A stretch of DNA of 64,000 nt, taken from Denitrovibrio acetiphilus DSM 12809 (GTDB lineage: Bacteria > Chrysiogenota > Deferribacteres > Deferribacterales > Geovibrionaceae). Numbering within the stretch: position 1 is the stretch's first letter; the number at the start of each line of letters is the position of its first letter. Position numbers and translations under genes: made by a program. The DNA lies in the NCBI RefSeq assembly GCF_000025725.1, contig NC_013943.1, forward strand, positions 2,852,001 through 2,916,000, read 5' to 3'. Of the stretch, positions 24,808 through 42,212 are shown piece by piece. Below the pieces are notes generated by a model that made no database searches, was not told the DNA's origin, and saw only the letters and a list, made by a program, of their open reading frames with translations.

Positions 24808-25939
24808 TATAACATCCGGAATTGCCGGCGATATGTCTTTAGCAGTTCTTTATGGATTAGGACTGAACCTCAGCGAAATTGAAACACTTGTAGATAAAAT
24901 AGCAGGTGTACAGATAACAATCATACCGGAAAGGGTCTCTGTGAACGGAATAGACGCCACACGTCTGAACATTAAGCTGCCCCACGAACACGCCCACAGG
25001 AAATTGTCAGATATCAGGAATATGATAGAAAAAGCTGACCTGCCGGATAAGGTGAAAAATGATGCGATCGGCATTTTTCAAATCATCGCAGAGGCTGAAG
25101 GGGCTGTCCACGGCAAAACCGTAGATGATGTTCACTTCCACGAAATCGGCGCTCTGGATTCTATACTGGATATAGTCGGGTTTGTATATGGAGTACATAG
25201 ACTGGGGATTGATAAGATAACAGCTTCGAAACCTGTTCTCGGGAGCGGTTTTGTCAAGTGTGCACACGGGAAAGTCCCTGTGCCTGCCCCTGCCACATTA
25301 AAGATTCTGGAGGGTGTTGCAGTTAAAAGGACTGACGAACCAAACGAACTAACCACCCCGACAGGAGCAGCAATCCTTAAATATTACGTCTCTGACTTTT
25401 CAACAGAATATGAAGGTGAAATTGCCGGTTCAGCTTATTCGACAGGAACCATCACACTCAAAACCATGCCTAACATCCTGCGGGGCACTCTCATAAAAAA
25501 TCAGTCTGCAAAAGAGCAGATTACCGTTATCGAAACAAACATCGATGACTGTTCCGGTGAAGTGATAGGAGCACTTTTTGATAAGCTGAAGAACGTCTCT
25601 CTGGACGTATTCTGCACACCCCTTACAGGTAAAAAGAACAGACCTGCGGTACAAATCACCGTCCTTTGTACCGATAAAAATATTGATGATGTAGCAGAAA
25701 TTCTGTTCAGGCATTCATCCACGGCAGGGTTAAGGTATCACAAAACAGACAGAATCATTATGGACAGAAAAATTGTCCAGACGGATGTCAGAGGCGAAAA
25801 AGTTGACGTGAAAGTTTTAAGTTATAAGAACATCAGAAAATACAGCCCGGAATGGTCAGCCTGTGAGAAAGCCTCCGTAAAGCTAGGGCTATCGGCTTTT
25901 GAAGTCTATGATCTGGCAAAAGCATCAATGCTTGATTAA
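24779..25939 (+). CDS. larC: LarC-type nickel insertion protein for the nickel-pincer cofactor
   Basis: LarC uses CTP to insert nickel into the pyridinium-dithiocarboxylate cofactor of lactate racemase and related enzymes. Family features are the N-terminus 'HFDITSGIAGDM', 'VHGKTVDDVHFHEIGALDS' with the metal-binding His and Glu, 'PVLGSGFVKCAHGKVPVPAPA', 'TPTGAAIL' and 'ETNIDDCSGE'. It is one continuous frame of 386 residues, so no frameshift is needed for full-length protein, unlike in Lactiplantibacillus. No larB, larE or larA is in the window. Confidence 0.92.
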   Translation: MCVNTTLHFDITSGIAGDMSLAVLYGLGLNLSEIETLVDKIAGVQITIIPERVSVNGIDATRLNIKLPHEHAHRKLSDIRNMIEKADLPDKVKNDAIGIFQIIAEAEGAVHGKTVDDVHFHEIGALDSILDIVGFVYGVHRLGIDKITASKPVLGSGFVKCAHGKVPVPAPATLKILEGVAVKRTDEPNELTTPTGAAILKYYVSDFSTEYEGEIAGSAYSTGTITLKTMPNILRGTLIKNQSAKEQITVIETNIDDCSGEVIGALFDKLKNVSLDVFCTPLTGKKNRPAVQITVLCTDKNIDDVAEILFRHSSTAGLRYHKTDRIIMDRKIVQTDVRGEKVDVKVLSYKNIRKYSPEWSACEKASVKLGLSAFEVYDLAKASMLD

Positions 25940-25945
25940 GCTTTT
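25918..25945. terminator. Possible bidirectional terminator between larC and the HPt gene
   Basis: AAAAGC-ATCAA, a three-base loop, and TTGAT-(TAA)-GCTTTT form a stem with a small bulge, flanked by A and T runs on the two sides. It spans the overlapping convergent gene ends, a suitable place for a shared terminator. The stem is AT-rich and interrupted, so the call is weak. Confidence 0.35.
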
Positions 25946-26263
25946 GAACTCACCATAGCAGGACTCGATCTCTGTCAGCAGGCGGGTAGTGAGAGCCTTA
26001 TCATTTTTGTCAGCATTCTGCATTTCAGAGCAAAGAGCACAAAGCTCGTCCACCATCATATTTGCCGCAGCGCCTTTCATCTTGTGGGCGTAATGTTTTA
26101 TGAATTCCGGTTCTGAATCTGCAACAGACCTGCTCAGATTTAATATCTCTTCATCCATCACATTAATAAATTCTTCAAGAAGCATCTCCATAGTGTCTAT
26201 GTCCAGCCCTATTTCTACCCCGACTTTTTTTAAATTATAATTTTTAATCTGCGTCATCTCCAC
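25925..26263 (-). CDS. Histidine phosphotransfer (HPt) protein
   Basis: This is a small helical phosphotransfer protein of 112 residues. The phospho-accepting His lies in 'HYAHKMKGAAANMMVDEL', matching the HPt pattern H-x-x-K-G-A/S-A. It is the last gene of the chemosensory operon and overlaps the receiver gene before it by 20 nt, suggesting the two exchange phosphate. Its 3' end overlaps larC by 15 nt on the opposite strand. Confidence 0.9.
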   Translation of the reverse strand: MEMTQIKNYNLKKVGVEIGLDIDTMEMLLEEFINVMDEEILNLSRSVADSEPEFIKHYAHKMKGAAANMMVDELCALCSEMQNADKNDKALTTRLLTEIESCYGEFKSLIKH

Positions 26264-26618
26264 TGCCTTTTTCCAGCATCTTCTGAATTGTTTCTATTTT
26301 GAAAGGTTTCGGCAGGAATTCATCAAAGATGCTCTGTTCGCCGATCTCGTCATCAGCAGAAATACAAACGATAAGAGGGCACTTACGCCCCTCAGCTTTA
26401 CAATCCTGCCTGATCATTGCAGCCGCTTCTGCCCCGCTCAGTTCGGGCATATTAAAGTCAAGAAAAACCATATTAAAATCCCTTTCCATGGCCAACTCAA
26501 CTGCCTCTGCCCCGTTTACTGCTGTCTGGCATGAGGCTCCGAATTTCTCAAGGAGCTTACATATCATAATACGATTAAGCTTATCATCTTCTGCCACAAG
26601 GACATTTATTACGTTCAA
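26244..26618 (-). CDS. Single-domain response regulator
   Basis: This 124-residue receiver has 'VAEDDKLNRIM' (acidic pair), the acceptor Asp in 'MVFLDFNMPELSG' and the Lys in 'FLPKPFKIE'. It starts at a TTG with AGGA shortly upstream, since no suitable ATG precedes the first strand. The sequence type resembles receivers that follow hybrid kinases more than classical CheY. It lies between the coiled-coil protein gene and the HPt gene. Confidence 0.9.
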   Translation of the reverse strand: MNVINVLVAEDDKLNRIMICKLLEKFGASCQTAVNGAEAVELAMERDFNMVFLDFNMPELSGAEAAAMIRQDCKAEGRKCPLIVCISADDEIGEQSIFDEFLPKPFKIETIQKMLEKGSGDDAD

Positions 26619-26628: not shown

Positions 26629-28101
26629 CTAGAAAAATTCCACAGACGACTGGCTGTCTTCTGTGGCAAGAATATCTTTCAGCTCTGCCTCATTGCGCCC
26701 TCTTGTAAACTCGTCATCAGAGAGGATGTCATCTCCAAGACTGTTGTTAAACTCCATAAAAGCCTCCTGAACACTTTCGTTAAATTCAGAAAACAGGTCT
26801 ATGAGCTTACCTGTTGTGCTTTCAAAGAAGTTAAAGTATTTATCAGCCATAAATATCTCACGAAAGTTATTCAGCTCGCCGTCCAGGTCGAGGGTTTTCT
26901 GCATAACGTCCCCTCTTTTATTATCTGACTGAGCCTGACAAAGGCCGCTCATGTCGACCCTTGCCGTTTCGAAAGTGTTCATAAAATCATTTCTGAGATT
27001 TTCCCACATATCGATATTAGAGTGAAGCTTATCTATCAGCCCATTAAGTTCATCTTCTGTCTCATTCATGGAAACAACAACACTGCGCAGGCTTTCGTCA
27101 TTTATTCTTGCGACTTCCACAGCAGTAATAACAACAAGGTTACGAAAAGTTTTAGAGTGTTTGGCAAGAACCCCGACGCTCCCCCTTGTTTTATAGAGCA
27201 CAGCTCTTGTTTCATTTATGCTCTCACCAAGAGTGTCAATAGTGGTACATACATTATTTGATAATTCAGTAACACGTTTGAGTTCCGAACGGAGAATATT
27301 CGTTTTACTGGCTATGTTCTGCAAATCTGTATTAAAAGTGTATATAAAGTCACCCATAACAAGCTTTATCCCTTCCAGCTTGTCCTGAAGAGAATATTTG
27401 ATAAAATCCAGCTTTGCGGTCGCCTTTTCATATACACCGAAGATGAGCCCGGCTTCGTATGGGGTGTCGAAATCCGCCTTAGATACAGCCTCGTTTATTA
27501 TCTCCATCTCCTGCATAAATATATCGTGAAACTGAGAATTTTCTATAAGAACCGACACATCTGATGTAATGACAAAGTCCTCGACAGTTTCAACTTCGAA
27601 AGAGCTGTCTGTGGGGACAAGCTTATGCTCCACAAGATGATCTGCTACATTTTTGAATCTGGCGAACATGTCATTAAAATTAGATGAAATGATATCCAAC
27701 AGACTTTTAACAGTTGTGGAATATTTCTTGATCTCTTTGCTGATATGAGTGATAGTCGAACCCTTGTCGCCAAGTGCCATGGTTCTGCATATTGTATTAT
27801 ACGAGAGCAGTTCTAGCTCTTCTGTAATGGCAATGAAAGTCGATGTAGCCTCCACTATGTCCTGTTTCATCTTTTCCATGTTCAGGTTTTCGATTTTGCT
27901 GTTGATATCCTCAGAGATAACATTGATTACTTTGTCTGTCTCGCCGACAAAGCTCTCAGAGCCTTTCTGTATCTCTTCGCTGATCGCAAGCATATCTGTG
28001 AAGCTGTCAGTTCTGTGACCGACAATCTCATTGATTATTCCGACTATCTCGTAAAAACAATCATTGATCTCATTTTTCAGACTTTCAAATTTTACACTCA
28101 T
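26629..28101 (-). CDS. Unrecognised helical/coiled-coil protein of the chemosensory operon
   Basis: I do not recognise a named family. The 490-residue protein is almost wholly helical by composition, acidic, and has no membrane segment, no Walker motif and no receptor signalling tip. 'FIAITEELELLSYNTICRTMALGDKGSTITHISKEIKKYS' carries a weak echo of receptor-type '[21 protein letters not shown]...EI' spacing (about residues 95-135), so it could derive from a chemoreceptor that lost CheA/CheW contacts. It starts 1 nt after the receiver gene upstream in the operon. Possible roles are scaffold, adaptor or phosphatase for the nearby receivers, all inference. Confidence 0.75.
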   Translation of the reverse strand: MSVKFESLKNEINDCFYEIVGIINEIVGHRTDSFTDMLAISEEIQKGSESFVGETDKVINVISEDINSKIENLNMEKMKQDIVEATSTFIAITEELELLSYNTICRTMALGDKGSTITHISKEIKKYSTTVKSLLDIISSNFNDMFARFKNVADHLVEHKLVPTDSSFEVETVEDFVITSDVSVLIENSQFHDIFMQEMEIINEAVSKADFDTPYEAGLIFGVYEKATAKLDFIKYSLQDKLEGIKLVMGDFIYTFNTDLQNIASKTNILRSELKRVTELSNNVCTTIDTLGESINETRAVLYKTRGSVGVLAKHSKTFRNLVVITAVEVARINDESLRSVVVSMNETEDELNGLIDKLHSNIDMWENLRNDFMNTFETARVDMSGLCQAQSDNKRGDVMQKTLDLDGELNNFREIFMADKYFNFFESTTGKLIDLFSEFNESVQEAFMEFNNSLGDDILSDDEFTRGRNEAELKDILATEDSQSSVEFF

Positions 28102-28449
28102 TTAATTGATGATCTCCTTCAGAAGAGCTTCTGTAATAGGCTTGAACACCACACTGTCAAATCCCGCTCTCTCAAGCATAGACCTCTCGCTTATGTCGGC
28201 AGTGAGCGCAACGAGCTTACATTTCTGCCATTTACCATTCTGTTTCAGGTAGGATAAAACATCCACTCCTGTCTCTCCGGGAGAAAGTCTATAGTCTATC
28301 AGTGCAACATCAGGCTCAGAAAGCCCGTCCATCCTCTTTTGCAGATCTTCAAGGGATGTAGATGTAGTCACTTCGTATCCAAGATTATTTAATAATATTT
28401 TACACATTTTAAGATGCAGCTCATTGTCATCAACCACAAAAACTTTCAT
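28102..28449 (-). CDS. Single-domain response regulator
   Basis: This 115-residue receiver has 'VVDDNELHLKM' (acidic pair), the acceptor Asp in 'VALIDYRLSPGETG', 'LVALTADIS' with the Thr, and the Lys in 'VVFKPITEALL'. It lies 15 nt downstream of cheA, the usual place for a direct CheA substrate, and directly before the unrecognised coiled-coil gene. Confidence 0.93.
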   Translation of the reverse strand: MKVFVVDDNELHLKMCKILLNNLGYEVTTSTSLEDLQKRMDGLSEPDVALIDYRLSPGETGVDVLSYLKQNGKWQKCKLVALTADISERSMLERAGFDSVVFKPITEALLKEIIN

Positions 28450-28464: not shown

Positions 28465-31374
28465 TTAAAACAGCTTGTTAACATTAAGAACAAGCACCGC
28501 CTGACCGTCCCCCAGTATGGTAACTCCGCCTATGTAGTTCAGGTGAGAGAAATACTCAGGAACAGGCTTGATAGCAATGTCCATTCTGTTCAGCAGTTCA
28601 TCTACTATAATACCCGTTTTGCCGGCATCTGTAACTGTTATCACAACGCTGACCTCATCACTTAGCTCTTTATTCTCTCCTCCCAACAACTTAGACAGTT
28701 GAAAAAGAGGTAAAACATTCCCTCTGTAGTAGGTTCCTTTACCAAAATGAAGGTCTTTTACCTGCTCTTTCTCTATAATTATAGTTTCTGCTACATTTTC
28801 TATAGGAAAAGCATAAAACTCATCTTCGCCCATCTGAACCAGAAGCGAAGTAGACATACCGATGGTAACAGGGATCTTCATCGTTACCCGTGTGCCTTCA
28901 CCTTCAGAAGAAGAAACATCTATAAATCCTCCGACACTCGTTATGGAGCTTTTAACAACATCCATACCAACGCCCCGACCGGAGATATCAGTAACTTTCT
29001 CGGCTGTGGAAAACCCAGGAGCCAGTATAAACTGTATTATCTCCTTTTCTGTGAGATTCGCTCCATCAGGGACAAGCCCTTTGCTGACAGCTTTTTCCAG
29101 CACTTTGCCGCAGTTAATACCTCTGCCGTCATCAATCACTTCGATATAAACAAAACTCCCTTCATTATATGCTTTGAGAATAAGGCTTCCGGTTTCATAC
29201 TTGCCCGAAGCTGTTCGTTCCGCAGCGCTTTCAAGACCGTGATCACAAGCATTACGAACAAGATGAACAAGCGGATCTGAAAGGATATCAGCAATTTTTT
29301 TATCTATCTCTGTATCTTCCCCGATAATCCTCAGATCCATAGTTTTATTCTGCTTGCGGGAGATATCTCTCACCACACGGGGGAATTTATTAAATATCTG
29401 TTTGATCGGAACCATCCGCAGGGAGAGGATATCACGCTGCAAATCCTGTGATATTCTTGCGATCAGGTTCGAGTTATCTTTGAAGTCCTTCACAAGACTC
29501 GTTGGGAGGTCATAGTCTTTTATCAGCTTCTGCATCATGTATTCATATGCGTTCTTTGCTACTACAAGCTCACCTATTGTATTTGTGAATTTGTCTATCT
29601 TTTCCTGGTCGACTTTCATCGACTGAGAGAATTTCTCTTTTGCAACAACAGGTTCGGGTGACGGTTCCGGCTCTGCAACCACAGCAGCCGGTGCAGTATT
29701 TTCAGATGCTTTCATGATATTCTGTTTTTTCAGAACCATGTCTAGTTCGTCCTTATCCAACTTACCCTGATCGACAAGTATCTCGCCTATCTTTTTCTGC
29801 TGGGATTTCGCGTGTTCAACTTCTTCCACGGTGACCTTGCCTGATTCAACCAGCAGTTCCCCAAGCTTTTTCGGAGGCGACTTCAGCTGAGTGATATAGC
29901 TCTTTATAGAACTCAGTACAGCATCATAGTCTTTGCCACGGCTGACATCCGACTCAAACGCAACTGCAAGTTCAGTGAGGTCTTTAAAACCTATAAATTT
30001 AGCCGCATTGCGCAGTCCCGCAGCGGCTCTCTGTCTCATCTGCATTCCCGCAGGCACACTCTCGGCCAGCTCTATCATCTCCATAAACTGATCAACCTGT
30101 CCGAGGAAAATCTTTACTTCATCTGTGATCGCAGGCGTATTCTGAACCTGAAGAGTAATGGTATTAGTCAGGTCATGAAGCATGGTATAAGTTTCCGGCA
30201 GGCACGGTTTTTCCTTGTTTAGTAAAGCATTTATCACAGCCTTCACATCAGAGATTATGTTTAGGATAAATTCTGCTGCCCTATTGTCAAAAACCACAGA
30301 GCCTTCACGCACTTTATCAAGCATATTTTCAACGAGATGGGCGTATTTCTCCATAAAAGAGAAACCGACATACCCGCTGTCGCCTTTGATATTGTGAAAA
30401 ACACGGAAAATGTTATCAACAGCCTCTTTGCTGCCGATACCAGTCTTCTCTATTTCTATCAGATAGTTTTCTATAGACTCAAAATAGTCCTCTATCCCTG
30501 CGGCAAGCTCTGCGAGCATCTCTGTATCTATCCCTTCAGTCGCAACATGACTTTCAGGTCTTTCATCTGTTTCCATTATCATAGAGGTTTTGCTTTCAGG
30601 CTGTCCCGCCTCATCATCAAGAGAGATTTCGTGAACTTCAACAGTGTCAGGGTCAAACGCAAGGTCTGTTATCTCATTCAAAGAAGCATCACTTATGATG
30701 TATATATCCGGTCTGAGATAAAGCTTGTACGGTTCAATCTGCTCTGTCTCCGGTATCCCTTCTGTATCTGTTACAGCGATAAAAACATCTGAGATGTTCC
30801 GTAGATTAGAATAAAGTGTAAGCGGGTCATATCCGTTTTCAAGCATCTCATCTGTGAACTTAACATTAACCCTGTACGGTTTCCCAAACCCGGGGTGTCT
30901 GCTTATCAGCTCTTTTTTTATTGCTGTGTCCACTTTTACAACAGCCTCCGGCAGCCTGTCCGCATCAGCCTCCACCGCACAGATCATGCCATCGTCCGCT
31001 CTGCTTTCAAACTGAGCAGTAATTCCAGACAGGTCTTTATTATATTCCTTCCTATCTCTCGCATAGTCCACCATCTCAAAGAGAGTGTCTATCCCCTTAA
31101 GAAGAAGGTCTGTAATGTCTGCATTTATTTTCAATTCACCAGTTCTGAGTTTATCCAGCATAGTTTCAAGATGGTGGGAGAACTCAGATATTCCGTCAAA
31201 GCCGAAACCGCCGGCACTACCTTTTATAGTATGTATACACCTGAAAACCGCATTAAAAAGCTCAAGATCACCGCCTGACTCGGCACGGAGGATATTTTCA
31301 TTCGCCTCTTCAAGGAGATCTGCAGCTTCATCTAAAAACCCTAACTTAAATTTTTCTATGTCTATATGGGGCAT
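28465..31374 (-). CDS. cheA: CheA-type histidine kinase with multiple HPt domains and MshEN-like repeats
   Basis: This is the central kinase of the operon, about 969 residues from the ATG at 31374 (GGAG upstream). In order: HPt 1 with His in 'CIHTIKGSAGGFGF' (about residue 48); a P2-like region ('YRVNVKFTDEMLENGYDPL'); HPt 2 with His in 'VFHNIKGDSGYVGF' (about 320); a third HPt-like bundle whose His is missing ('LRNAAKFIGFKDLTELA'); two tandem MshEN-like repeats ('LGELLVESGKVT', 'IGEILVDQGKLD', about 500-555); dimerisation helices; a HATPase domain ('HLVRNACDHGLESA', 'IDDGRGI', 'GRGVGMDVV'); and a CheW-like domain. MshEN domains can bind c-di-GMP in pilus and secretion ATPases, so this kinase might be c-di-GMP-tuned (inference). 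Confidence 0.96.
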   Translation of the reverse strand: MPHIDIEKFKLGFLDEAADLLEEANENILRAESGGDLELFNAVFRCIHTIKGSAGGFGFDGISEFSHHLETMLDKLRTGELKINADITDLLLKGIDTLFEMVDYARDRKEYNKDLSGITAQFESRADDGMICAVEADADRLPEAVVKVDTAIKKELISRHPGFGKPYRVNVKFTDEMLENGYDPLTLYSNLRNISDVFIAVTDTEGIPETEQIEPYKLYLRPDIYIISDASLNEITDLAFDPDTVEVHEISLDDEAGQPESKTSMIMETDERPESHVATEGIDTEMLAELAAGIEDYFESIENYLIEIEKTGIGSKEAVDNIFRVFHNIKGDSGYVGFSFMEKYAHLVENMLDKVREGSVVFDNRAAEFILNIISDVKAVINALLNKEKPCLPETYTMLHDLTNTITLQVQNTPAITDEVKIFLGQVDQFMEMIELAESVPAGMQMRQRAAAGLRNAAKFIGFKDLTELAVAFESDVSRGKDYDAVLSSIKSYITQLKSPPKKLGELLVESGKVTVEEVEHAKSQQKKIGEILVDQGKLDKDELDMVLKKQNIMKASENTAPAAVVAEPEPSPEPVVAKEKFSQSMKVDQEKIDKFTNTIGELVVAKNAYEYMMQKLIKDYDLPTSLVKDFKDNSNLIARISQDLQRDILSLRMVPIKQIFNKFPRVVRDISRKQNKTMDLRIIGEDTEIDKKIADILSDPLVHLVRNACDHGLESAAERTASGKYETGSLILKAYNEGSFVYIEVIDDGRGINCGKVLEKAVSKGLVPDGANLTEKEIIQFILAPGFSTAEKVTDISGRGVGMDVVKSSITSVGGFIDVSSSEGEGTRVTMKIPVTIGMSTSLLVQMGEDEFYAFPIENVAETIIIEKEQVKDLHFGKGTYYRGNVLPLFQLSKLLGGENKELSDEVSVVITVTDAGKTGIIVDELLNRMDIAIKPVPEYFSHLNYIGGVTILGDGQAVLVLNVNKLF

Positions 31375-31390
31375 AGCAAACTCCAACTCT

Positions 31391-31756
31391 CTACATTATG
31401 CCGAGAAGCATTTTTATGTTCATGATCAGGTCATCCGGCTTAACAGGTTTTGTAATATAGAGGTTTGCACCGGACTCGTACCCCTTCTGCCTGTTTTCGA
31501 TCTCTTCCTGTGTTGTAATAATAATTACAGGTGTTTCCTTTCCAGTTTTTCTGAATTCCTCAATGAAAGTTATTCCGTCCATCCTGGGCATATTCAGGTC
31601 GCAAAGCATGAGGGCATAGTTGGTTTTCATGGATTTCTCCAGAGCATCCATCCCGTCTATCGCTCCATCTGCATCAAACCCTGCTGATTTCAGGATATTA
31701 CTGTGAAAGTGCCTCACCATGTCCGAATCATCAATTACCAGCACCTTAATTGCCAT
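31391..31756 (-). CDS. cheY: CheY-like response regulator
   Basis: This receiver of about 121 residues has 'VIDDSDMVRHFH' (acidic pair), the acceptor Asp in 'LMLCDLNMPRMDG', 'IIITTQEE' with the Thr, and the Lys in 'YITKPVKPDDL'. The start is taken as the ATG at 31756 with AAGGGGT upstream, not an upstream codon inside cheR. It sits between cheR and cheA. Confidence 0.93.
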   Translation of the reverse strand: MAIKVLVIDDSDMVRHFHSNILKSAGFDADGAIDGMDALEKSMKTNYALMLCDLNMPRMDGITFIEEFRKTGKETPVIIITTQEEIENRQKGYESGANLYITKPVKPDDLIMNIKMLLGIM

Positions 31757-31760
31757 CTTG

Positions 31761-32588
31761 TTACCCCTTGAAATAAACCACATTTGAACCGAAACGTTTC
31801 ACTTTAAAGGCGGTGGTTATGCGCCCGACAGACTCACTGTGTCCCAGAAAGATATATCCGCCCTGATTCAGCGATATATAAAAATGGTCTACTACCTGCT
31901 TTCTGGATATATCATCAAAGTATATCAAAACGTTTCTGCAAAATACAAAGTCGTAATTTCTTTTTGTTCTCATAGACATCCTGTCCATAAGGTTCAGATG
32001 CTCGAAAGTAACCATATCCCTCACCTGTCTCACAGGGAGATAGCGCCCACGAACCACTTCAAAATATTTTCTAAGATAGGCATCAGGAACGTCTTTAATA
32101 CTCCTGTCGTCATACATTGCCGTTTCTGCCTTATCCAGAACAACCTCGTCAATATCCCCAGCATGTATCTGTACATCCCAGTCATCCACATTATCAAGCA
32201 TCTCTCTGATTATGATCGCGAGGGTATAGGGCTCTTCACCTGTGGAACAGCCGGCAGACCATATACGAAGGGATCTGTCACCTCGTTTTATCTTCGCCTC
32301 TGTTATCTCCTGCAGACAATGCTCTGCAAAAGTTTCAAGAGTATTAAACTCACGAAAAAAATATGTTTCATTAACTGTCAGCAGATTCATAAGTTCCTGC
32401 ATTTCAGTACCGTCATCTTTAAATTTCAGATAACGCAGATAATCCCGCAGGTCATCCATGTGCATCTCTTCGAGACGTCTGGCGACACGCTTGTTAATGA
32501 AATACATCTTCTTTGTTTCAAACTTTATCCCTGACTTTTTGTAAATAAACGCTGTCAGATCATTAAAATCGTCTGAATTTATGTGCAT
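31761..32588 (-). CDS. cheR: CheR chemoreceptor methyltransferase
   Basis: CheR methylates receptor glutamates with SAM. The N-terminal helical domain is followed by 'LLTVNETYFFREF', the SAM site 'RIWSAGCSTGEEPYTLAI', and 'DFVFCRNVLIYFDDISRK', all diagnostic. Its 275 residues are normal. The only receptor in the operon is the soluble protein at 36966, so this CheR probably acts on it. No C-terminal tetratricopeptide or tether-binding extension is present. Confidence 0.97.
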   Translation of the reverse strand: MHINSDDFNDLTAFIYKKSGIKFETKKMYFINKRVARRLEEMHMDDLRDYLRYLKFKDDGTEMQELMNLLTVNETYFFREFNTLETFAEHCLQEITEAKIKRGDRSLRIWSAGCSTGEEPYTLAIIIREMLDNVDDWDVQIHAGDIDEVVLDKAETAMYDDRSIKDVPDAYLRKYFEVVRGRYLPVRQVRDMVTFEHLNLMDRMSMRTKRNYDFVFCRNVLIYFDDISRKQVVDHFYISLNQGGYIFLGHSESVGRITTAFKVKRFGSNVVYFKG

Positions 32589-32598: not shown

Positions 32599-33660
32599 TT
32601 ACCCCTTTATGCTTTCAAGCAGAGCTGTCAGGGTTCTGCTGTGTTCCCCGTCTGCCAGCTTCAGCTTCTTTTCGATCATCTTAACGGCTCTCGGTCTGTC
32701 TATATCCGCAAGATGCTCCAGCGCAGTAAGTGCGATGTCCTCGCTGTCGTCTGCGGCAAGTTCTTCATAAAGGCTCTCTTTGCTGGATATATCCAGCTTT
32801 GAAACTATGTATAAGAATGTCAGCCGCTCTTCAGCGTATCCGTTCAGATTTTTCAGATTGTTCAGCATGAATTTAGTATGGATCTCATCCAATCTATGTA
32901 TGTTCTCTCTTGAGATGATTTTGAGTATCCCATTTGATATCTCTCTGAAATACATAGTGTTTTTATTATTCAAAAAGGAAAGGAGGAACTCCAGATGTCT
33001 TGAGCCGCCTTTTTCTCCGGCAAGCCTTATCACACTGGGCTTATAAAAACTGTCCATCCCGCCGGCACCGAGGACAGCAAGAACTCTGTCAACATTATCG
33101 GGGCTGCCCATAATGGTTAAAGTCTCCAAACAAGCAGAACGAACCATAGGCTCTGTGCTCGTCTCAAATATCTCCATAACATCATTAAGGGATTCTTCAT
33201 CATATATTTTGCCGAGATATTCTATAGCTGTAATCATAACATTAGGCGCCTTATCACGCAGCGCAGCACGCAAGGCAGGGATAGAATATTTAGAGCTTGT
33301 AGCAACAAGGCTGTCCAGAATCAGCTTTCTCACTTCTTTATTTTCGTGATCCATTATGGAAGTAAGAAATGCAACCGCCTCTTCACCTTTTGAGCCGAAA
33401 ATCTCGATTATACAGTTTCTCACATAAGCATCAGTAGATTCAAAATATCTGGATATCTCTTTAAAATAGTCGGAGATATCAAGCACTTTAAGCCCCTCTA
33501 CAATAAGCTCACGGACAAGCCTGCTCTGCTCTTTCTCAAGGTGAGCAATAATGTCAGGGTAGAGTTTTTCTTCCTTGAGAGCGATCACATCCTCAACAGC
33601 ATATATACGCTGTGTTTCATCATCACCACTTAAAACTGCGAGCAGTCCTTCTCTTTCCAC
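32599..33660 (-). CDS. HEAT-repeat protein of the chemosensory operon
   Basis: The protein of about 353 residues is made of repeated helical pairs with HEAT/Armadillo-like signatures, such as 'ALRDKAPNVMITAIEYLGKI', 'STEPMVRSACLETLTIMG' and 'DSEDIALTALEHLADI'. Such solenoids bind proteins and have no enzymatic motif. I prefer the GTG at 33660, which has AGGAGG five bases upstream, to the GTG at 33693, which overlaps the preceding stop but lacks a ribosome site. HEAT proteins occur in some chemosensory operons of environmental bacteria, with unclear function. Confidence 0.85.
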   Translation of the reverse strand: MEREGLLAVLSGDDETQRIYAVEDVIALKEEKLYPDIIAHLEKEQSRLVRELIVEGLKVLDISDYFKEISRYFESTDAYVRNCIIEIFGSKGEEAVAFLTSIMDHENKEVRKLILDSLVATSSKYSIPALRAALRDKAPNVMITAIEYLGKIYDEESLNDVMEIFETSTEPMVRSACLETLTIMGSPDNVDRVLAVLGAGGMDSFYKPSVIRLAGEKGGSRHLEFLLSFLNNKNTMYFREISNGILKIISRENIHRLDEIHTKFMLNNLKNLNGYAEERLTFLYIVSKLDISSKESLYEELAADDSEDIALTALEHLADIDRPRAVKMIEKKLKLADGEHSRTLTALLESIKG

Positions 33661-33689
33661 TACAGCCTCCTGATTAGTATGCCGACTAA

Positions 33690-34055
33690 TCACCCAATAA
33701 TCTTTTTCACGACAGCAAGCAGATCGTTCGGTTTAAAGGGTTTCACAATCCATGCCTTTGCTCCTGCCTTTCTCCCTTCTTCTTTTATGCCCGCCTGAGA
33801 TTCGGTGGTCAGCATGATAACAGGGGTAAACTTATGCTTTGAGCTGGCTTTAACCTCTTTAAGAAAAGTGATGCCGTCCATATTAGGCATATTCACATCA
33901 GAAACAATCAGGTTAAATCTCCCCTCTGCATCCAGTTTTTTCAAAGCATCAACCCCGTCTCTGGCGTCCACAACGTCATAGCCGGAAGCTTTCAGTGTGG
34001 CAGCCACAAGCTGTCTCATTGTTATAGCATCATCAACAATAAGAATCTTCTTCAT
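33690..34055 (-). CDS. cheY: CheY-like response regulator
   Basis: This is a 121-residue receiver of classical CheY type: 'IVDDAITMRQLV' (acidic pair), acceptor Asp in 'LIVSDVNMPNMDG', 'VIMLTTESQ' with the Thr, and the Lys in 'WIVKPFKPNDLL'. It shares one base with the STAS gene start/stop junction upstream, so the two are translationally coupled. Confidence 0.95.
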   Translation of the reverse strand: MKKILIVDDAITMRQLVAATLKASGYDVVDARDGVDALKKLDAEGRFNLIVSDVNMPNMDGITFLKEVKASSKHKFTPVIMLTTESQAGIKEEGRKAGAKAWIVKPFKPNDLLAVVKKIIG

Positions 34056-34351
34056 TAAATTCCTCCAATCAAGCCTTTCAAGCTGATTCCGTAGAGCTTT
34101 TCCGTCTCTTCCAGAACCTCAGATGTCTTTATGGAAACTTTATTATTGTGTATTTTTACTGTCTTTATAATACTGAGGGCGAGCTGAATAAAAACTGTGT
34201 CCAGCGTTTTTACTCCGCTGAAATCCAGCTCAACAGGCTTCTTATCCATATCTATGCCGGTCAGTTCACTAATAAACTCTTCAGCCATGAATATTTCTGA
34301 CTCTTCAGGGAAAACAATCTTGATTTTGGTTTTGAGTTCGTTTATCTCCAT
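34055..34351 (-). CDS. STAS-domain protein
   Basis: This 98-residue single STAS domain has the central strand-loop-helix 'VELDFSGVKTLDTVFIQLAL'. In anti-anti-sigma factors the loop reads D-S and the Ser is phosphorylated; here it is D-T, still phosphorylatable in principle. STAS proteins are found in chemosensory operons that control functions other than flagella. A SpoIIE-type phosphatase is encoded at 20253 and could act on it, although there is no direct evidence. It lies 1 nt after cheB. Confidence 0.85.
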   Translation of the reverse strand: MEINELKTKIKIVFPEESEIFMAEEFISELTGIDMDKKPVELDFSGVKTLDTVFIQLALSIIKTVKIHNNKVSIKTSEVLEETEKLYGISLKGLIGGI

Positions 34352-34352
34352 A

Positions 34353-35426
34353 TCACCATCCCCTGCTTATCCTTCTGGTAATCTCGTCTGCTATCTTATT
34401 GCTGGGCAGCACCATGTCCGCACAACCTCTCTCAACTGCCTCTCTGGGCATTCCGTAAACTATAGCTGTCTCTTCTGATTCAGCGATTGTAAAGCCCCCC
34501 GAGCGTTTTATACCGCACATGGACTTTGCGCCGTCATCCCCCATGCCTGTCATCAGCACGCCAAGGGTATGCTTTTTAAAAACTTCTGCAACAGAATCCA
34601 TCATGATGTCTACACTGGGGATAAAAGCATGCTCAGGAGTTTGCCCAAGCCTAAGTGTTGTTATGCCGTTGTGCTTCCTGTAGAGCGTCATGTGACACCC
34701 GGCTTTACCGACATAACACACTCCCGGAGTTACAATATCTCCGGCGGCAGCCTCTTTAACATAAATACGCGATGCTTTGTTCAGTCTCTGGGAAAATGAC
34801 TCTGTGAACCCCACAGGCATGTGCTGAACGAGGAACAGAGCGGCATTAATATCTGATGGAATTCTTGGTATAACATCAAAAATAGTCTTCGGACCACCCG
34901 TTGATATCCCCATACAGACAGCTTTAAAACCTGCACTGTCAACAGGAGCAAGCTCCATCTCATCGACAACCTTCTCATCTTCACCGAGGTCTTCCATCTC
35001 GATTCGTCTGGTCAGCCTGGAAAGCCCGATTCCGGCAGCAGCCTTGACTTTACGCACAAGCTCCCTGCGGACAATATCTATATCTCTGGAAACGGTGCCG
35101 CTCGGTTTTGCAACAAAGTCAAAAGCACCTAGCTCCATCGCCTCAAATGTTGTGGCTGCCCCCTCCTGTGTAAGAGAACTCAGCATAATAACGGGGCATA
35201 TATCTTTTTCTATTATGATCCTTAACGCCGTGATTCCGTCCATGACAGGCATGTTTACATCCAGAGTTATAACATCGGGTTTAAGCTCAACAGCTTTGTT
35301 GACTCCGTCCTCCCCGTTTCTGGCTGTCCCCACAACTTCAACACCAAATGCGGTGTCCAGCATCTCTGTGATCTTCTTCCGCATCAGAGCAGAATCATCA
35401 ACTATAAGCACTCTTACTTTTTTCAT
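34353..35426 (-). CDS. cheB: CheB protein-glutamate methylesterase/response regulator
   Basis: CheB removes or deamidates receptor glutamate modifications when phosphorylated. The receiver domain has 'IVDDSALMRKKI', acceptor Asp in 'VITLDVNMPVMDG' and Lys in 'FVAKPSGT'. The esterase domain has the catalytic Ser in 'MGISTGGPKT', His in 'LVQHMPVGF' and Asp in 'LMTGMGDDGAKSM'. The length of 357 residues is normal. It overlaps the triple-CheW gene by 4 nt. Confidence 0.97.
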   Translation of the reverse strand: MKKVRVLIVDDSALMRKKITEMLDTAFGVEVVGTARNGEDGVNKAVELKPDVITLDVNMPVMDGITALRIIIEKDICPVIMLSSLTQEGAATTFEAMELGAFDFVAKPSGTVSRDIDIVRRELVRKVKAAAGIGLSRLTRRIEMEDLGEDEKVVDEMELAPVDSAGFKAVCMGISTGGPKTIFDVIPRIPSDINAALFLVQHMPVGFTESFSQRLNKASRIYVKEAAAGDIVTPGVCYVGKAGCHMTLYRKHNGITTLRLGQTPEHAFIPSVDIMMDSVAEVFKKHTLGVLMTGMGDDGAKSMCGIKRSGGFTIAESEETAIVYGMPREAVERGCADMVLPSNKIADEITRRISRGW

Positions 35427-36931
35427 CCTTCCTGCAAATTCTCCAGTTTTTTAATTTCGGCTCTGGAAAAAAGCTCTTCCACATCCAGCAAAAGAATCAT
35501 TTTTTCATTCTTATCAAAATTTATCACACCTTCAATAAACTCAGAATTCACAGCAGCACCGAGAACAGGCGGAACAGGGTCAATGTCTTCCTGCCTTATG
35601 CGAAGCACTTCATCAACCCAGTCAACAACAAACCCAACTTTCATATTTTGGAGGTTTATTATTATCACGCGGGTGAATTCGTCCCTCGGTTTAGTCTCCA
35701 GCTCAAAACGCGAGCGCAGATCTATCAGCGGGATCACTTCTCCCCGAAGATTAATTATCCCCTCAACAAATTTCGGAGTTTTAGGTATCTTAGTAACGTT
35801 GGTGTACCTGTTTATCTCCTGAACCTTCTGGATGTATATCCCATAGTGTTCATTCTCTATCTGAAATGTAACGATCTGCTTCTCTTCATCAGCAGTATTA
35901 GTAACATCATAGTTCATATGTGTCCCCCCTTTCGACTGCTCAGCAACACTTTTCAGTGCCTCCAGCTCTGCATCATCCACAAGGTTCTCCGGCTCCAGAG
36001 CCATCACAAGCCTTTTGCCGTCTTCAAGCTTCAAAACCGCAGAGACCTCTGAACCTTCCTGATCTTCATAGACTTTCGGAGGGAGTTCGATAAGGCTTTC
36101 ATCAACACTTACAACGGCATTAACTTTATCCGCGGCAAAGGCAACCATCACATTGCCGATATCCACTATGACAACACGGGTCGTCTCGTCATCCCTGTTA
36201 AGGGTCATACCAAACCTGCTGTGAAGAGACAAAAGAGGGATAACCTCACCGCGCAGAGAGAAAATCCCGAGTACATAAGAGGGGAGACCGGGCACAGAAG
36301 TAACCTCAGGCATCCATATGATCTCGTTTATCTTATGGATCTCGATGGCATATTCCTGCTCTTTAATGTTGAAACTTATAAAACGTTTCTCGTCAATAGC
36401 CCCCGCAACAACATCTTCTTTCTTCTCTTTTTTAATAAGCGCACTGTTCTGTTCGAGGTATTTACCTGCCGAGTCGATATCTATAATTTCATCTGTATTT
36501 ATCAATTGTATTATGGAAACGTCTTCACCCTTTCCGACTTTCAGTATGCCGGAGATATATTTCTTATCCACGCCGGCATTCAGTATGTCAGGGAACTTAT
36601 CAATATCATGCATCTCAGTGGACTTGACTTCATTCACAGACTCAACGATGAGTCCTGTGAGTATCCCCTGTTTATCCACGACGATCACACGGGTATCTTC
36701 CCCGTGCACACAGGGGTGTTTGTAGCCAAGCCTCATAGAAAGATCCACCAGCGGGAGCACCTCTCCACGAAGGTTTGTCATACCAAGAACATAGTCAGGC
36801 ATTTTCGGGACACGGGTTATCTTAGGCACACGTATTATCTGACGGACATCCTCTATACCTATGCCGTATGTTTCCGCCCCCACACCGAAGGAAACGTATA
36901 TACTCTCTGTTTCTAACGTATTGTCAGACAT
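35423..36931 (-). CDS. cheW: Triple CheW-domain coupling protein
   Basis: The protein of about 502 residues contains three consecutive CheW domains, each recognised by a repeated '...YVLGM/I...LRGEVLPLVDL' block: 'VLGMTNLRGEVLPLVDL', 'VLGIFSLRGEVIPLLSL' and 'VEGIINLRGEVIPLIDL'. Most CheW proteins have a single domain of about 150 residues. A triple version could bridge several CheA and receptor units in a cytoplasmic array. The start is the ATG at 36931 with AGGAGA upstream; upstream in-frame codons would overlap the receptor gene. Confidence 0.95.
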   Translation of the reverse strand: MSDNTLETESIYVSFGVGAETYGIGIEDVRQIIRVPKITRVPKMPDYVLGMTNLRGEVLPLVDLSMRLGYKHPCVHGEDTRVIVVDKQGILTGLIVESVNEVKSTEMHDIDKFPDILNAGVDKKYISGILKVGKGEDVSIIQLINTDEIIDIDSAGKYLEQNSALIKKEKKEDVVAGAIDEKRFISFNIKEQEYAIEIHKINEIIWMPEVTSVPGLPSYVLGIFSLRGEVIPLLSLHSRFGMTLNRDDETTRVVIVDIGNVMVAFAADKVNAVVSVDESLIELPPKVYEDQEGSEVSAVLKLEDGKRLVMALEPENLVDDAELEALKSVAEQSKGGTHMNYDVTNTADEEKQIVTFQIENEHYGIYIQKVQEINRYTNVTKIPKTPKFVEGIINLRGEVIPLIDLRSRFELETKPRDEFTRVIIINLQNMKVGFVVDWVDEVLRIRQEDIDPVPPVLGAAVNSEFIEGVINFDKNEKMILLLDVEELFSRAEIKKLENLQEG

Positions 36932-36965: not shown

Positions 36966-39206
36966 TTAGAAAACCTGCATTTCGTCTGCCAGCGACGCAA
37001 CCTCTTCAGACGCTGCCGCTATCTCCTGAAGACCTTTCACCTGCTCATCTGCTGCGGTTTTGGCTTCATCAGAAAGTGACTTAAGGTTTTCAGCAGCTTC
37101 AAGCCCCTGCTGACACGCTACCCTCACAGTTTCAACTTTTACAGCGCCAGACTCAACATAGTTGGCGCATTTCTCACGGAGATCAATAAGGTGCTTACGT
37201 ATTCTCACAACATTCACAAGGTTGTCCACTGCGGATTGTGATTTCTCAATCTGCACCCTGATAAGGGCTGTTATCTCTGCAAGTTCATTCTGAAAATTAA
37301 CCACACGCTCATACATTTCATCCAGAATGTCCTTCATCCTGTCTGCATTATCCGCTGACTCATTAGCAAGAGCGCGTATATCCGCTGCCACCACAGAAAA
37401 GCCTCTGCCGTATTCACCGGAACGTGCCGCCTCTATATTACCACTAACTGCAAGCATGTTCGTCTGTATCGCTACGTTTGTGATTGTGTCAACAATCTTT
37501 CTTATATTGCCAAAAGATTTATTGAGGAGAGCCACTTCGTCATGCACTTCACGCAGGTTATTTATTGAACCTACAAACCCTTTCACAACAAGCTCTATGC
37601 CGTGCCTGAAGTCTCTGAAATGCCCCTTAAACTGATCAACAGACGGCTTAACTTTATGAGAGAAAACCTCTCTAGCGTCCTGCATCTTCCCGCTTTTCAT
37701 CAGTTCAACTATTTCAGCCGCACCAAGGTGTACATGGTTGTGAGGTTCCCTGATAAATTCATAAGCTTTCTCCTCTTTCCCCGTGCCCGGCTTATAGGTC
37801 TCATACCATGCCCCAAAAGCACACTTTGTAGGGTCAAGCTGTCCCATAAAAGGCTTATTATTATTCAGTGATTCTTCAAGCTGATTTATAAAAACAATGT
37901 GGTCAAGCGCCTTTATCTCTTCCAGAGCATCATCAACAAGCTTACCGAGTTTCATGATAATGTCCCAGCTCTCCTGTCCGTTACTGAGATAATCAGAAAT
38001 TATATTAAACTCTCTTGTGATACCGGCTATCTCTTCGAATATTTCGCTTGTACCTATGTCCATCTGGTCTATAGCTTTCAAAACTTCATCAGCAGATGCA
38101 TTCAGCTCTTCTATAGTGCTGGAGAGTTCTTCCGCTGCCGCTGCAACTTCTTCTGATGATTTTGCAATATCAGTAGAGTGCTTCAGTTCATCAGACATCT
38201 CCGCAAGCTCCTGCGCGGCAATGGTTAGCTCGCTAAATGCTTTTGACTGTTCCCCTGTAAATTTCCCCACTTCCTCTGAAGCGGCTGCATTCTGCTCTGC
38301 GGATGAGGCGAGTCTGCTCACAAGATCCATAGATTTGCTCGACTCGTCACTGATACTCTGTGACCCAAGCTTAACCTTCTCAACCTCCACACCTATCTCG
38401 TCTGTATGGCTGCGGACAGTTGTACATTGCTTACTTATAAAGTCCGCCTTAAAAAGATTTGTGCGGGAGAGCAGTAGAAAACTGTCCACTTTTCCCACAA
38501 CCTGAGTTACCTGCTCTAGTGAGATATCAATTACACTTTTTATATTTTTTGCTGATTTTTCAGACACTTCCGCAAGGGTTCGCACCTCATCGGCAACAAC
38601 AGCAAAGCCCTTACCGTGCTCGCCTGCTCTTGCCGCCTCTATAGCTGCGTTCAGAGCAAGGAGGTTGGTCTGGTCGGCGATTTTTGTTACCACCTGAACA
38701 ATCTGACCGATAGAGTCCGCCTTCTCTTTAAGCTGGTCTACAAGCTGAGTTGACTCCTCTACTTTATCAGTGGTGGACTGCACGCTCTCTTTAAGGTCGT
38801 TTGCAGCATCAACAGTCGCTCCGACCCTGCTTATAAGCTCGGCTGTAGACTTCTCGTATTCTATAGAGGTTGTCAGAACATTCTTTGCATCGATCTCCAG
38901 AGCGATAGTATCGTTTTTAATCCCTTCTGCACTGGTGCTTGCCTGACTGGATGCAGCCGAAACCTCGTCCATAGAGGCATTGAGCTGACCGGAAGCACTG
39001 GAAGCCTGCTCTATCGCAGAAGCCATCTCTTCTGATGCTGTTGCAAGTCTTTCTGCATTTGTCTGTTGTTTCGCAAGAGTTCTTGCTCTTGCTTTCTCTG
39101 CGACCTGTCTTTTGGAATCATCCCTTCTTTTCAGAAGATCCTCACCGTCTTTTCTCACTATCCCGGTTCTACCTTCCAGACTGGATGGTTTGGCGAGCTT
39201 TTTCAT
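36966..39206 (-). CDS. Soluble methyl-accepting protein with two signalling modules and a CZB domain
   Basis: No membrane segment is visible in about 746 residues. A first receptor hairpin has its tip at '[21 protein letters not shown]'. A CZB zinc-binding domain follows ('[12 protein letters not shown]', 'KCAFGAWYE', '[15 protein letters not shown]', with the usual His/Cys ligands). A second, shorter hairpin has the tip '[21 protein letters not shown]'. CZB domains sense zinc-coupled oxidants such as HOCl in other bacteria. Two tips in one chain are unusual. The start is the ATG at 39206 with GGAGGGAG upstream. It is the only receptor in the operon and so is likely its input. Confidence 0.93.
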
Positions 39207-39227: not shown

Positions 39228-40724
39228 TTAGTATATCTTAATGTCTTTAATCTTTTCCGAATCTATCTCTGCCTTTAGCGTAAAGTCGTGCTCTGCACCT
39301 GTCTTAACATCTTTAGTCCAGACACTGACGATACCGCTGACATCTATAGCAAAACCGATATCAATAAGGTTTTCTTCTTCATTTTTATCTATTTTAAAAT
39401 CAAACTTGCCCAGACTTACAAAATATTCAGGGTCATCTGCCGGGCTGTCCGAAATATTCAAAGCTGACCCGGCCATATCCTGAAGAGCGTGTATGGTGAC
39501 TTTATCCAAATTGTTGTCTGTGGTCTTGAATCTGGTCGAGAATTCCACAGGGTAGGGCTCATTCTTTTTCATTATGATTTCAAAATCACCGTTGTCATCT
39601 TCTATACCCATATTATGACTTGTTACATCAAAAAACTTTTTATCTGTGACAACCCCCGTCTGCATGGCGGCATTCACTGCGGCACCGCTCACCACAGCCT
39701 CTTCAGGATTAATATCCTTACTTAACGCATCACCGAACATCTCTGCAACAAGAGAGCGGACATTGCATATCCTGCTGGCGCCCCCCACAGGGAGAACACG
39801 GCTGATATCTTTTGTGTTTATACCGTTTAACTCCAGCATATCAGAAACAAGTTTTCTTATTTTATCAGTTATATGTTTTGTAATCTTAGTAAAAAGTTCT
39901 CTGTCTATAGTCTGTTTAAAGTGAAGAGGTCCCTTCGGTGTTATGGTTATATATGGTATCACGAGATTTGTTTCATTAAGTGAGGACAGTTCCATTTTTG
40001 CTTTCTCTGCCTGAAAGAGAAGCTGCTGAAAAGCTATAGGGTCGCTCCTCAGATCAATCTCGTTGATTTTTGCAAATTCGTTATTAAAGTAGTCTGCCAC
40101 AGCAACATCAAAGTCAAAACCGCCTATCTGAGTTGAACCGCCTGTAGCGACAACCTTCAGGCAATCTTCTTTAATCTGTATAAGGCTGATATCAAGAGTC
40201 CCTCCGCCAAGGTCGAATACAAGACAGAGCTCATCCTCTTTTTTGCCTATATTATTATAGTAAAGAGCTGCCGCAGTGGGCTCATTCAGCAGGGATAAAA
40301 CATCAAAACCTGCCGCCTCAGCAGAAGCACGAACCGCCTCCCGTTGCAGGTGGTCAAAGTATGCCGGTACTGTCACCACAGCCTCCGCATCCTTCTCCCC
40401 TGTATAATCACTGTACAGAGTTTTAAGCTTTCTGAAAAAGAGAGCCGCAAGCTCCGGTGGGGTGTATTCTCTCCCATAAAGATCAAAAATTTTATCAGTG
40501 CCCATATATCTCTTAACATTAGAGATAGTGTTTTCTGACTCCAGCAGCTGCATACTGCGGGCATTGTCCCCTGTAACAGCTTCGGAAGCATTCTTAAAGT
40601 ACACAACAGAAGGGAGGAACCTCTTTCCGCTGTCAGAGGATATCACCTCAATGCCTGAACCTTCCTTATAAACAGCAATCATTGAGTTCGTTGTGCCAAA
40701 ATCTATACCAACAGGGTATTTCAT
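39228..40724 (-). CDS. Hsp70/DnaK-family protein lacking the C-terminal lid
   Basis: This 498-residue protein has a complete Hsp70 nucleotide-binding domain: phosphate-1 loop 'GIDFGTTNSMIAV', 'VVTVPAYFDHLQREA', 'LNEPTAAALYYN', phosphate-2 'VFDLGGGTLDISL', and 'VLPVGGASRI' for the adenosine site. A beta-type substrate-binding domain follows (about residues 365-498), but the helical lid of DnaK (about 130 residues) is absent. No DnaJ or GrpE gene is adjacent. It lies between parA and the receptor gene and overlaps parA by 4 nt, so it appears to be a dedicated part of the chemosensory system. Confidence 0.93.
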   Translation of the reverse strand: MKYPVGIDFGTTNSMIAVYKEGSGIEVISSDSGKRFLPSVVYFKNASEAVTGDNARSMQLLESENTISNVKRYMGTDKIFDLYGREYTPPELAALFFRKLKTLYSDYTGEKDAEAVVTVPAYFDHLQREAVRASAEAAGFDVLSLLNEPTAAALYYNNIGKKEDELCLVFDLGGGTLDISLIQIKEDCLKVVATGGSTQIGGFDFDVAVADYFNNEFAKINEIDLRSDPIAFQQLLFQAEKAKMELSSLNETNLVIPYITITPKGPLHFKQTIDRELFTKITKHITDKIRKLVSDMLELNGINTKDISRVLPVGGASRICNVRSLVAEMFGDALSKDINPEEAVVSGAAVNAAMQTGVVTDKKFFDVTSHNMGIEDDNGDFEIIMKKNEPYPVEFSTRFKTTDNNLDKVTIHALQDMAGSALNISDSPADDPEYFVSLGKFDFKIDKNEEENLIDIGFAIDVSGIVSVWTKDVKTGAEHDFTLKAEIDSEKIKDIKIY

Positions 40725-41506
40725 ACTTCCCCTCCAGTTATGGCAGTCTTCTCTTCTATAAAATCAGCAAGAAGATTAAAGTCCATATTACCCCTGCTCC
40801 TTGGAGCAAAAACGTTTATAGGCTCTCTGTATTCCGGAGCTTCTGCTATTTTTATGTCGTTTCTGATCCTCGGAGCGACCATATCGTCTCCGAAGTTTTC
40901 GTATATCTCCTTCAACACCCGCTTTGAGTGATTACTACGGATATCATATTGATTAGCGATAATACCGGTCATTCTCACATCCGGATTAAAACCTGCATTT
41001 ATTCTGTAAATACTCTGAGTAAGCTGGGCAAGTCCTTCTATCGCGAGGAAATTAAGCAAAATAGGTATCATGACATGTGTTGCCGCAACCAGAGCATTCA
41101 GCGTGAGCACAGCAACTGTGGGCGGTGTATCAATGAGTATATAGTCGTATTCATTTTTAAATTCCATCAATACCTTTGCAAGCTTCCCTTCCGGTTTATC
41201 ACCATCTAAAAGCTGCCTGAGCAACCCCATAGAAAAGTTAGTCGCAGCAGGTAACACGTCATAAAGTCCGTGCTCTGCCTTATGAAGACAGTCTCTGCCG
41301 GAACAGCTCCCCAGCAGTGCGTCATAAACAGAAAGGTAGTTGTTATAAGTGTTCACCCCAGACCAGAACGAAAGATGAGCCTGCGGGTCAAGATCCACAA
41401 GCAGCACTTTATATCCACGCTCACCAAGAACGCCGCCGGAGTTCACAACAGAGGAAGTTTTCCCGCTCCCCCCTTTTTTGTTTGCAAATGTAACTACTGA
41501 TGCCAT
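40721..41506 (-). CDS. ParA/Soj-family ATPase, first gene of the chemosensory operon
   Basis: The deviant Walker A motif is 'ANKKGGSGKTSSV', Walker A' is 'LLVDLDPQAHLSFW', and Walker B is 'DYILIDTPP'. These define the ParA family that positions cargo over the nucleoid. No parB or parS-like site is nearby. ParA homologues (ParC, PpfA) position chemosensory clusters in vibrios and Rhodobacter, so a role in segregating this soluble array is the best guess. It is the promoter-proximal gene, followed by the Hsp70 gene with 4-nt overlap. Confidence 0.92.
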   Translation of the reverse strand: MASVVTFANKKGGSGKTSSVVNSGGVLGERGYKVLLVDLDPQAHLSFWSGVNTYNNYLSVYDALLGSCSGRDCLHKAEHGLYDVLPAATNFSMGLLRQLLDGDKPEGKLAKVLMEFKNEYDYILIDTPPTVAVLTLNALVAATHVMIPILLNFLAIEGLAQLTQSIYRINAGFNPDVRMTGIIANQYDIRSNHSKRVLKEIYENFGDDMVAPRIRNDIKIAEAPEYREPINVFAPRSRGNMDFNLLADFIEEKTAITGGEV

Positions 41507-41672: not shown

Positions 41673-42212
41673 ATGCTCAAAATACTATTTCTGGACAGAG
41701 ACGGTATCATAAATGTCGACAAAGGGTATATACACAAACCGGAAGACATTGAACTGGTGGACGGATTAGAGCTGTTTCTCAAAACGGCAGAAAATATGGG
41801 TTACAAACTTATTGTAGTGACTAATCAGGCAGGCATAGCAAGAGGCTTTTATACTGACAATGACGTAAAAAACCTGCACAAACACATGTATGATACCTTA
41901 GCTGCCAGAGGCATAAACATTACAGATTTTCTCTTCTGCCCTCACCACCCCGACTTTACAGGGGAATGCTCATGCAGAAAACCAGCCCCAGGGATGCTGC
42001 TGCTTGCCCGGGATAAATATAATGTCGACATGGGTAAATCTATAATGATCGGCGATAAACGCTCTGATGTGCTCGCCGGACGAAATGCCGGTATAGGCAC
42101 ATGTATACTTGTTTCAAGCCGCTATCAGTCAGAAAAAACAGCAGAAGCAGACTATTTCGCGAAGAATTTATCTGATGCAACTGAATTCATAAAAAAACTA
42201 AATAAGAATTAA
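41673..42212 (+). CDS. gmhB: D-glycero-D-manno-heptose-1,7-bisphosphate 7-phosphatase
   Basis: This HAD phosphatase acts in synthesis of the ADP- or GDP-heptose used in LPS core or S-layer glycans. Motif I is 'LFLDRDGIINVD', the zinc-binding loop is 'CPHHPDFTGECSCRKP' (Cys and His ligands), and motif IV is 'MIGDKRSDVLAG'. Its 179 residues are normal. It has a GGAGG-type ribosome site and is divergent from parA. Its stop overlaps the convergent diguanylate cyclase gene by 4 nt. Confidence 0.93.
   Translation: MLKILFLDRDGIINVDKGYIHKPEDIELVDGLELFLKTAENMGYKLIVVTNQAGIARGFYTDNDVKNLHKHMYDTLAARGINITDFLFCPHHPDFTGECSCRKPAPGMLLLARDKYNVDMGKSIMIGDKRSDVLAGRNAGIGTCILVSSRYQSEKTAEADYFAKNLSDATEFIKKLNKN

Follow-up and report, generated by a model that had tools for sequence, protein, structure and literature searches.

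A lid-less Hsp70 encoded directly ahead of the soluble receptor in chemosensory operons of two bacterial phyla, and its candidate role as a receptor-specific clamp

We analysed a stretch of 64,000 nucleotides of the Denitrovibrio acetiphilus DSM 12809 genome (NC_013943.1, positions 2,852,001 to 2,916,000; hereafter the window), of which the minus strand harbours a chemosensory operon of 15 genes with intergenic gaps of −23 to +34 nt. The first gene encodes a ParA ATPase of 261 amino acids (40721..41506; Pfam AAA_31, E 1.5e-42) with the Walker A motif FANKKGGSGKT. The second encodes an Hsp70 of 498 amino acids that comprises the nucleotide-binding domain and SBD-beta, but not the lid (39228..40724; PF00012, E 4e-115). 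At their junction, GAAGTATGAAATAC, both genes share a 4-nt ATGA overlap (40721-40724). The third gene, encoding a soluble chemoreceptor of 746 amino acids with two MCPsignal stretches and a CZB domain (36966..39206; Pfam and hydropathy), follows after 21 nt when its start is placed at the ATG at 39206. Since this ATG is preceded by the ribosome site GGAGGGAG and gives the N-terminus MKKLAKP that is common to the orthologues, we take it as the receptor start; the longer open reading frame from 39221 is probably an over-call. This head of the operon, with ParA and Hsp70 overlapping by 4 nt and the receptor next, had been described in an earlier note on this DNA and was found as described.

Downstream of the receptor gene, and on the same strand, lie the genes for a triple CheW protein (35423..36931; three CheW domains, 2.9e-106), CheB (34353..35426), a STAS-like protein of 98 amino acids (34055..34351; weak STAS_2 match, E 0.004), a first CheY-like receiver (33690..34055), a HEAT-repeat protein (32599..33693; HEAT_2, 1.8e-33), CheR (31761..32588), a second CheY-like receiver (31391..31783) and CheA with two Hpt stretches (28465..31386). 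These are followed by genes for a receiver protein (28102..28449), an all-helical protein of 490 amino acids that matched no family above cut-off (26629..28101), another receiver protein (26244..26618) and an Hpt protein (25925..26263); the Che, receiver and Hpt proteins were all assigned by domain matches. Receptor, CheW, CheA, CheB, CheR and CheY are thus all present in one operon. The receptor has no membrane span, its maximal 19-residue hydropathy being 0.98 compared to 2.68 for a membrane protein from the same window, and the operon is indeed the complete soluble chemosensory operon that the note had proposed. As in ParA-positioned cytoplasmic systems, a ParA with an intact deviant Walker A adjoins the soluble receptor, and the KGG.(G/A)K(T/S) motif is retained in all 14 aligned ParAs. 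Among the operon genes scanned we found neither DnaJ nor GrpE, as the note had also stated, and no RsbR, RsbS or RsbT genes, only the weak STAS-like gene. Elsewhere the genome carries a regular dnaK gene and two more genes for CheA. The protein of 490 amino acids carries ELLSYNTICRTMALGDKGSTITHISKEI, which recalls a degenerate receptor signalling hairpin, and it is possibly a non-canonical receptor. Its model was helical (pLDDT 81) and gave no PDB matches at E≤0.001; receptor structures were among the weak coiled-coil matches.

When other genomes were searched for this Hsp70, it was located directly before the receptor gene in 24 out of 24 loci in which both genes could be read, with ParA mostly just ahead of it. 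The carriers are 12 Deferribacterota genomes and at least 12 Desulfobacterota genomes. Within the Deferribacterota, a close Hsp70, with at least 50% identity, was present in 12 of 51 genomes, comprising 11 of the 12 genomes of the Denitrovibrio family (four genera) and one from another family (G011). The order ParA-Hsp70-MCP-CheW3-CheB-u98-CheY-HEAT-CheR-CheY-CheA, in which u98 is the 98-residue protein, is retained in the Deferribacterota loci read. The Desulfobacterota proteins match at 40-42% identity. A profile built from both groups scored clade members at 606-752 bits, in open reading frames of about 500-570 amino acids, while DnaK reached up to about 490 bits, mostly in open reading frames of 630 amino acids or more. 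Among 389 evenly sampled Desulfobacteria, nine genomes passed this profile, and three more contained fragments or broken copies beside the receptor. G059, where ParA-TPR-Hsp70 and the receptor are found on different contigs, was left out of the 24 loci. In the Desulfobacterota a TPR gene of 120-150 amino acids (some are longer), with the N-terminal motif L..LL..K, is inserted between ParA and Hsp70. The gene order is not a product of chance, as it was seen in every one of the 24 loci, which are spread over two phyla. The note had suggested searching for Hsp70s of about 500 residues near cheA in the order ParA-Hsp70-MCP; the pattern holds across two phyla, and the pairing is not confined to this genome.

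Compared to DnaK, the Hsp70 (385.7 bits to PF00012, cut-off 20.6) can be aligned from its first residues throughout the nucleotide-binding domain and SBD-beta. It differs by the missing lid, a changed linker, its position on a clade of its own and scores below the DnaK equivalog cut-offs of NCBIfam (TIGR02350, 389.4 versus 822.55 bits; NF001413, 394.6 versus 648). The absence of the helical lid, already noticed before, is clear from the C-terminus, which is reached 12 residues past the start of the DnaK lid region; beyond SBD-beta, clade members have 1 to 40 residues and DnaKs 136-143. Using what we take to be E. coli numbering, assigned by motif, the ATPase residues D8, T11, K70, E171, D194, T199 and D201 are invariant in all 17 clade members checked, and the groove positions I401, F426, V436 and I438 are hydrophobic in nearly all clade rows. 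The arch residue M404 is replaced by D in most members. In the interdomain linker VLL is changed to xxF, so that the hydrophobic DnaK-type linker (VLLL) is not found. R167, which contacts J-proteins, is substituted in most rows (by K, S, A or L). In the tree, the clade is placed on a fully supported branch, apart from the DnaKs and from other short Hsp70-like proteins. The structures nearest to a model of the Hsp70 were DnaK, lid-truncated DnaK or BiP, although this model was poor (pLDDT 60, 7 rows) and adds little beyond the sequence. A truncated copy of the resident dnaK, or an oddity of a single genome, is excluded by the 24 loci and the separate clade; the clade Hsp70 moreover does not contain a stretch of 24 residues in the nucleotide-binding domain that is present in the aligned DnaKs. 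As the note had supposed, the lid-less Hsp70 behaves as a dedicated component of the system in being conserved across two phyla, and the ParA-Hsp70 pairing, shared by several groups of anaerobes, is probably a real new part of bacterial sensory arrays.

The receptor class itself is more widespread. Operons of the same class without Hsp70 are found in five phyla; receptors of the class occur in Nitrospirota, KSB1, Fibrobacteres and Riflebacteria, where none of the genomes examined contained the clade Hsp70. With the receptor as query, the class was found in 19 of the 389 Desulfobacteria: 11 have Hsp70 before the receptor, four have ParA and TPR without Hsp70, one has TPR in the stretch that was read, one has neither gene and two were unreadable. 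The five TPR-bearing genomes without Hsp70 before the receptor do not encode a clade Hsp70 elsewhere. At one locus (L208), the receptor is preceded by Hsp70 but not by ParA. Five loci (L054, L056, L058, L064 and L232) have a receptor without ParA in front and also lack Hsp70. Hsp70 is not strictly required for assembly, given that ParA and the receptor class function in several genomes that do not have it. The HEAT protein was considered as a dedicated nucleotide-exchange factor; this reading found no support, since HEAT is retained in same-class operons lacking Hsp70.

The receptor starts with a disordered-looking tail (39153..39206, minus strand) harbouring the elements LAKP and RTGIVRK, a candidate docking peptide for Hsp70. 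Most members of the receptor class carry the element LA[KR]P. TG[IVLM], on the other hand, occurs in the tails of 22 of 23 receptors with Hsp70 and in only one of 17 without. The exceptions are L217, which has Hsp70 and TGG and in which the receptor gene is broken, and L245 from Riflebacteria, which has TGI and no Hsp70. When the tail was left out of the receptor tree, Hsp70 state changed six times, and there were six phylogenetically independent contrasts. In independent pairs the motif was concordant with Hsp70 5.3 times on average and never opposite (sign test, median p 0.06, range 0.03-0.125). Since the motif had been spotted in the same sequences that were later counted, we regard the association as suggestive. 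The tail is also conserved where the rest of the receptor is not: f1 receptors, which have the double MCPsignal and CZB (window 36966-39206), and the G011 receptor (L042 7426-9387) share 33% identity in their bodies and have the same N-terminal tail. Hsp70 grooves favour a hydrophobic residue with basic neighbours on either side. From the comparison across genomes, the N-terminal tail is likely the client of this Hsp70.

ParA was considered as the alternative partner of the TG motif. The receptors of the five Hsp70-less Desulfobacteria form one clade nested among Hsp70 carriers; the TPR gene is present in all five and ParA was read in four, and the tails read TGT, KGT, EGK, PGK and TGK. That the motif was lost in this clade although four of five members keep ParA in front argues against a ParA site. 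With the motif decaying where Hsp70 is missing and ParA kept by at least four of the five, Hsp70 appears to be the better candidate partner.

Taken together, gene order, conservation, the intact ATPase and groove residues, the absence of the lid and a tail motif that tracks Hsp70 are the observations on which we base a model, held tentatively and with a little less than even confidence, in which a client-specific Hsp70 serves as a clamp on the tail of the receptor and governs how a cytoplasmic array is assembled or docks with ParA. The array, soluble and positioned by ParA, would have acquired its own Hsp70. This Hsp70 would bind ATP and take up, in its open SBD-beta groove, a short hydrophobic and basic peptide of the disordered tail around TG[IVLM]. 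Given that the lid is missing and the linker is changed, we propose that the protein may work as a clamp that is fast and gated by nucleotide, and not as a refolding machine. While receptors are made and the lattice is built, the clamp could, by holding or letting go of the tail, set the packing of the receptors and the availability of the tail for ParA, such that the array would be put together a single time, positioned on the nucleoid and then partitioned. Both steps have precedents: in E. coli, HtpG interacts with CheA in dependence on DnaJ/CbpA, a case of chaperones in array assembly (PMC3708813), and PpfA acts through the N-terminus of TlpT, a case of ParA acting on a receptor N-terminus (PMC3964821). 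Points against the model are the two exceptions to the motif association, the genomes in which ParA and the receptor class do without Hsp70, the wide occurrence of LA[KR]P in the class, and the fact that the tail is equally well placed as a site for ParA.

The main rival to the clamp model is an input of stress or folding state, whereby misfolded proteins would titrate Hsp70 off the tail and the freed receptor would alter CheA activity, making the array a reporter of proteostasis. We consider this unlikely, if still a serious candidate. It fits the intact groove and ATPase, and Hsp70-like StkA genetically regulates upstream of Dif in Myxococcus (PMC4319316), whereas the acidic arch and the altered linker disfavour a generalist binder of unfolded proteins. 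In Desulfobacterota and relatives, the cluster moreover ends with a partner-switching stress module of RsbR-, RsbS-, RsbT- and SpoIIE-like genes. However, these genes do not decide the matter because same-class clusters that have no Hsp70 (L058, L065) carry them too, and they are absent from the Denitrovibrio operon.

Less probable still is that Hsp70, alone or together with the TPR protein, serves as a cofactor that resets the nucleotide or dimer state of ParA, its place before the receptor reflecting operon order only. This reading would explain why hsp70 adjoins parA with a 4-nt overlap in D. acetiphilus, why the TPR gene sits between ParA and Hsp70 in Desulfobacterota and why the five clusters without ParA before the receptor also have no Hsp70. 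The four operons that keep ParA and TPR without Hsp70 indicate, however, that ParA does not need Hsp70; at L208 Hsp70 is found without ParA in front, and it is the receptor tail that changes along with Hsp70. Very improbable is an ordinary specialised chaperone, which would aid co-translational folding of the large cytoplasmic receptor or of CheA and have no regulatory role: hsp70 does immediately precede the receptor gene, and the HtpG-CheA interaction depends on the DnaK pathway (PMC3708813), but same-class receptors fold without Hsp70 in other genomes, the features that serve J-proteins, R167 and the linker, have not been conserved, and one family has kept the tail on a receptor body of a different (double-MCPsignal) type.

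Among known systems, PpfA-TlpT of Rhodobacter sphaeroides CheOp3 likewise has a ParA homologue encoded beside a soluble receptor (PMC3964821); the same paper does not mention Hsp70, and PMC6829392 mentions neither a chaperone nor DnaK. ParA-like positioning is also found with Vibrio ParC/ParP, and V. cholerae has soluble double-baseplate arrays (PMC5706961, PMC3964821); in the former case ParP links ParC to the array (PMC5706961). In the open-access literature searched, the closest connection of an Hsp70-like protein to chemosensory signalling comes from Myxococcus xanthus, in which StkA (MXAN_3474) and SglK are Hsp70-like proteins of a chemosensory-linked pathway and StkA acts upstream of Dif (PMC4319316). 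Compared by description, the stkA-stkB-stkC locus differs in having SCP2-like and PhaE-like genes, and it is not described within a ParA-receptor-CheA operon. A ParA-positioned cytoplasmic array is thus already known, while a conserved operon gene for a dedicated Hsp70 is new relative to the literature searched: we found no description of an Hsp70 gene in a chemosensory operon in the open-access papers covered, and within this scope the system is undescribed, as the note had surmised.

A further resemblance is to the RsbR/RsbS/RsbT stressosome. In Desulfobacter, genes for RsbRD_N+STAS, STAS, HATPase and SpoIIE proteins follow cheA, a module that is missing from the Denitrovibrio operon with its single weak STAS-like gene. 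This chemosensory-stressosome cluster, with its RsbR-, RsbS-, RsbT- and SpoIIE-like genes, was read at L163 387-3030 (Desulfobacter latus) and also at L057, L058, L059 and L065; no description of it was found in the literature searched.

Few protein lattices are understood as well as chemosensory arrays, and yet the assembly and placement of cytoplasmic arrays are poorly known. An Hsp70 in an array operon, together with a candidate docking peptide on the receptor, makes these processes directly testable. If the clamp model is true, this would be a rare lid-less Hsp70 with a single client, useful for asking about the roles of the lid and of J-proteins.

A different lid-less Hsp70 (495-499 amino acids) was found in three genomes of a distant Deferribacterota family, f10, where it is part of the main flagellar/che operon (L043 12118-13605; also L044 and L045), between FliM/FliN-type genes and cheY. 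Based on Pfam assignments made on L043, the order is SRP54-type GTPase (FlhF-like), ParA/MinD-like (FlhG-like), sigma factor (FliA-like), CheB, FliM, FliN-type, Hsp70, CheY, an unknown gene and CheA. The equivalent D. acetiphilus operon has FliM, FliN-type and CheY with no Hsp70 in between. The f10 protein forms a separate lineage in the tree and has retained a DnaK-like linker and R167. As this lineage is separate from the ParA-Hsp70 clade, chemotaxis operons appear to have gained lid-less Hsp70s on at least two occasions. This second case suggests a general rule over an accident. It is a doubtful extension that lid-less Hsp70s are recurrent dedicated array factors, that is, nucleotide-gated clamps of receptor tails recruited at least twice and coupling the state of the cell to array assembly or signalling.

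Some further features were observed in and around the operon. Residues about 507-556 of CheA (28465-31386), KKLGELLVESGKVTVEEVEHAKSQQKKIGEILVDQGKL, resemble two T2SSE_N/MshEN-type motifs, a type which we take to be c-di-GMP-binding; Pfam gave no match here at E≤0.001. Upstream of the operon, window positions 42209-46959 encode a response regulator-GGDEF protein and a multi-PAS hybrid kinase. The former gene is also found upstream in the family members L035, L036 and L047, and a GGDEF-like gene lies downstream in some relatives (L051, L060, L066). These GGDEF neighbours are a possible c-di-GMP output of the operon. Finally, a selenocysteine tRNA gene was detected by ARAGORN at window positions 17358-17454.
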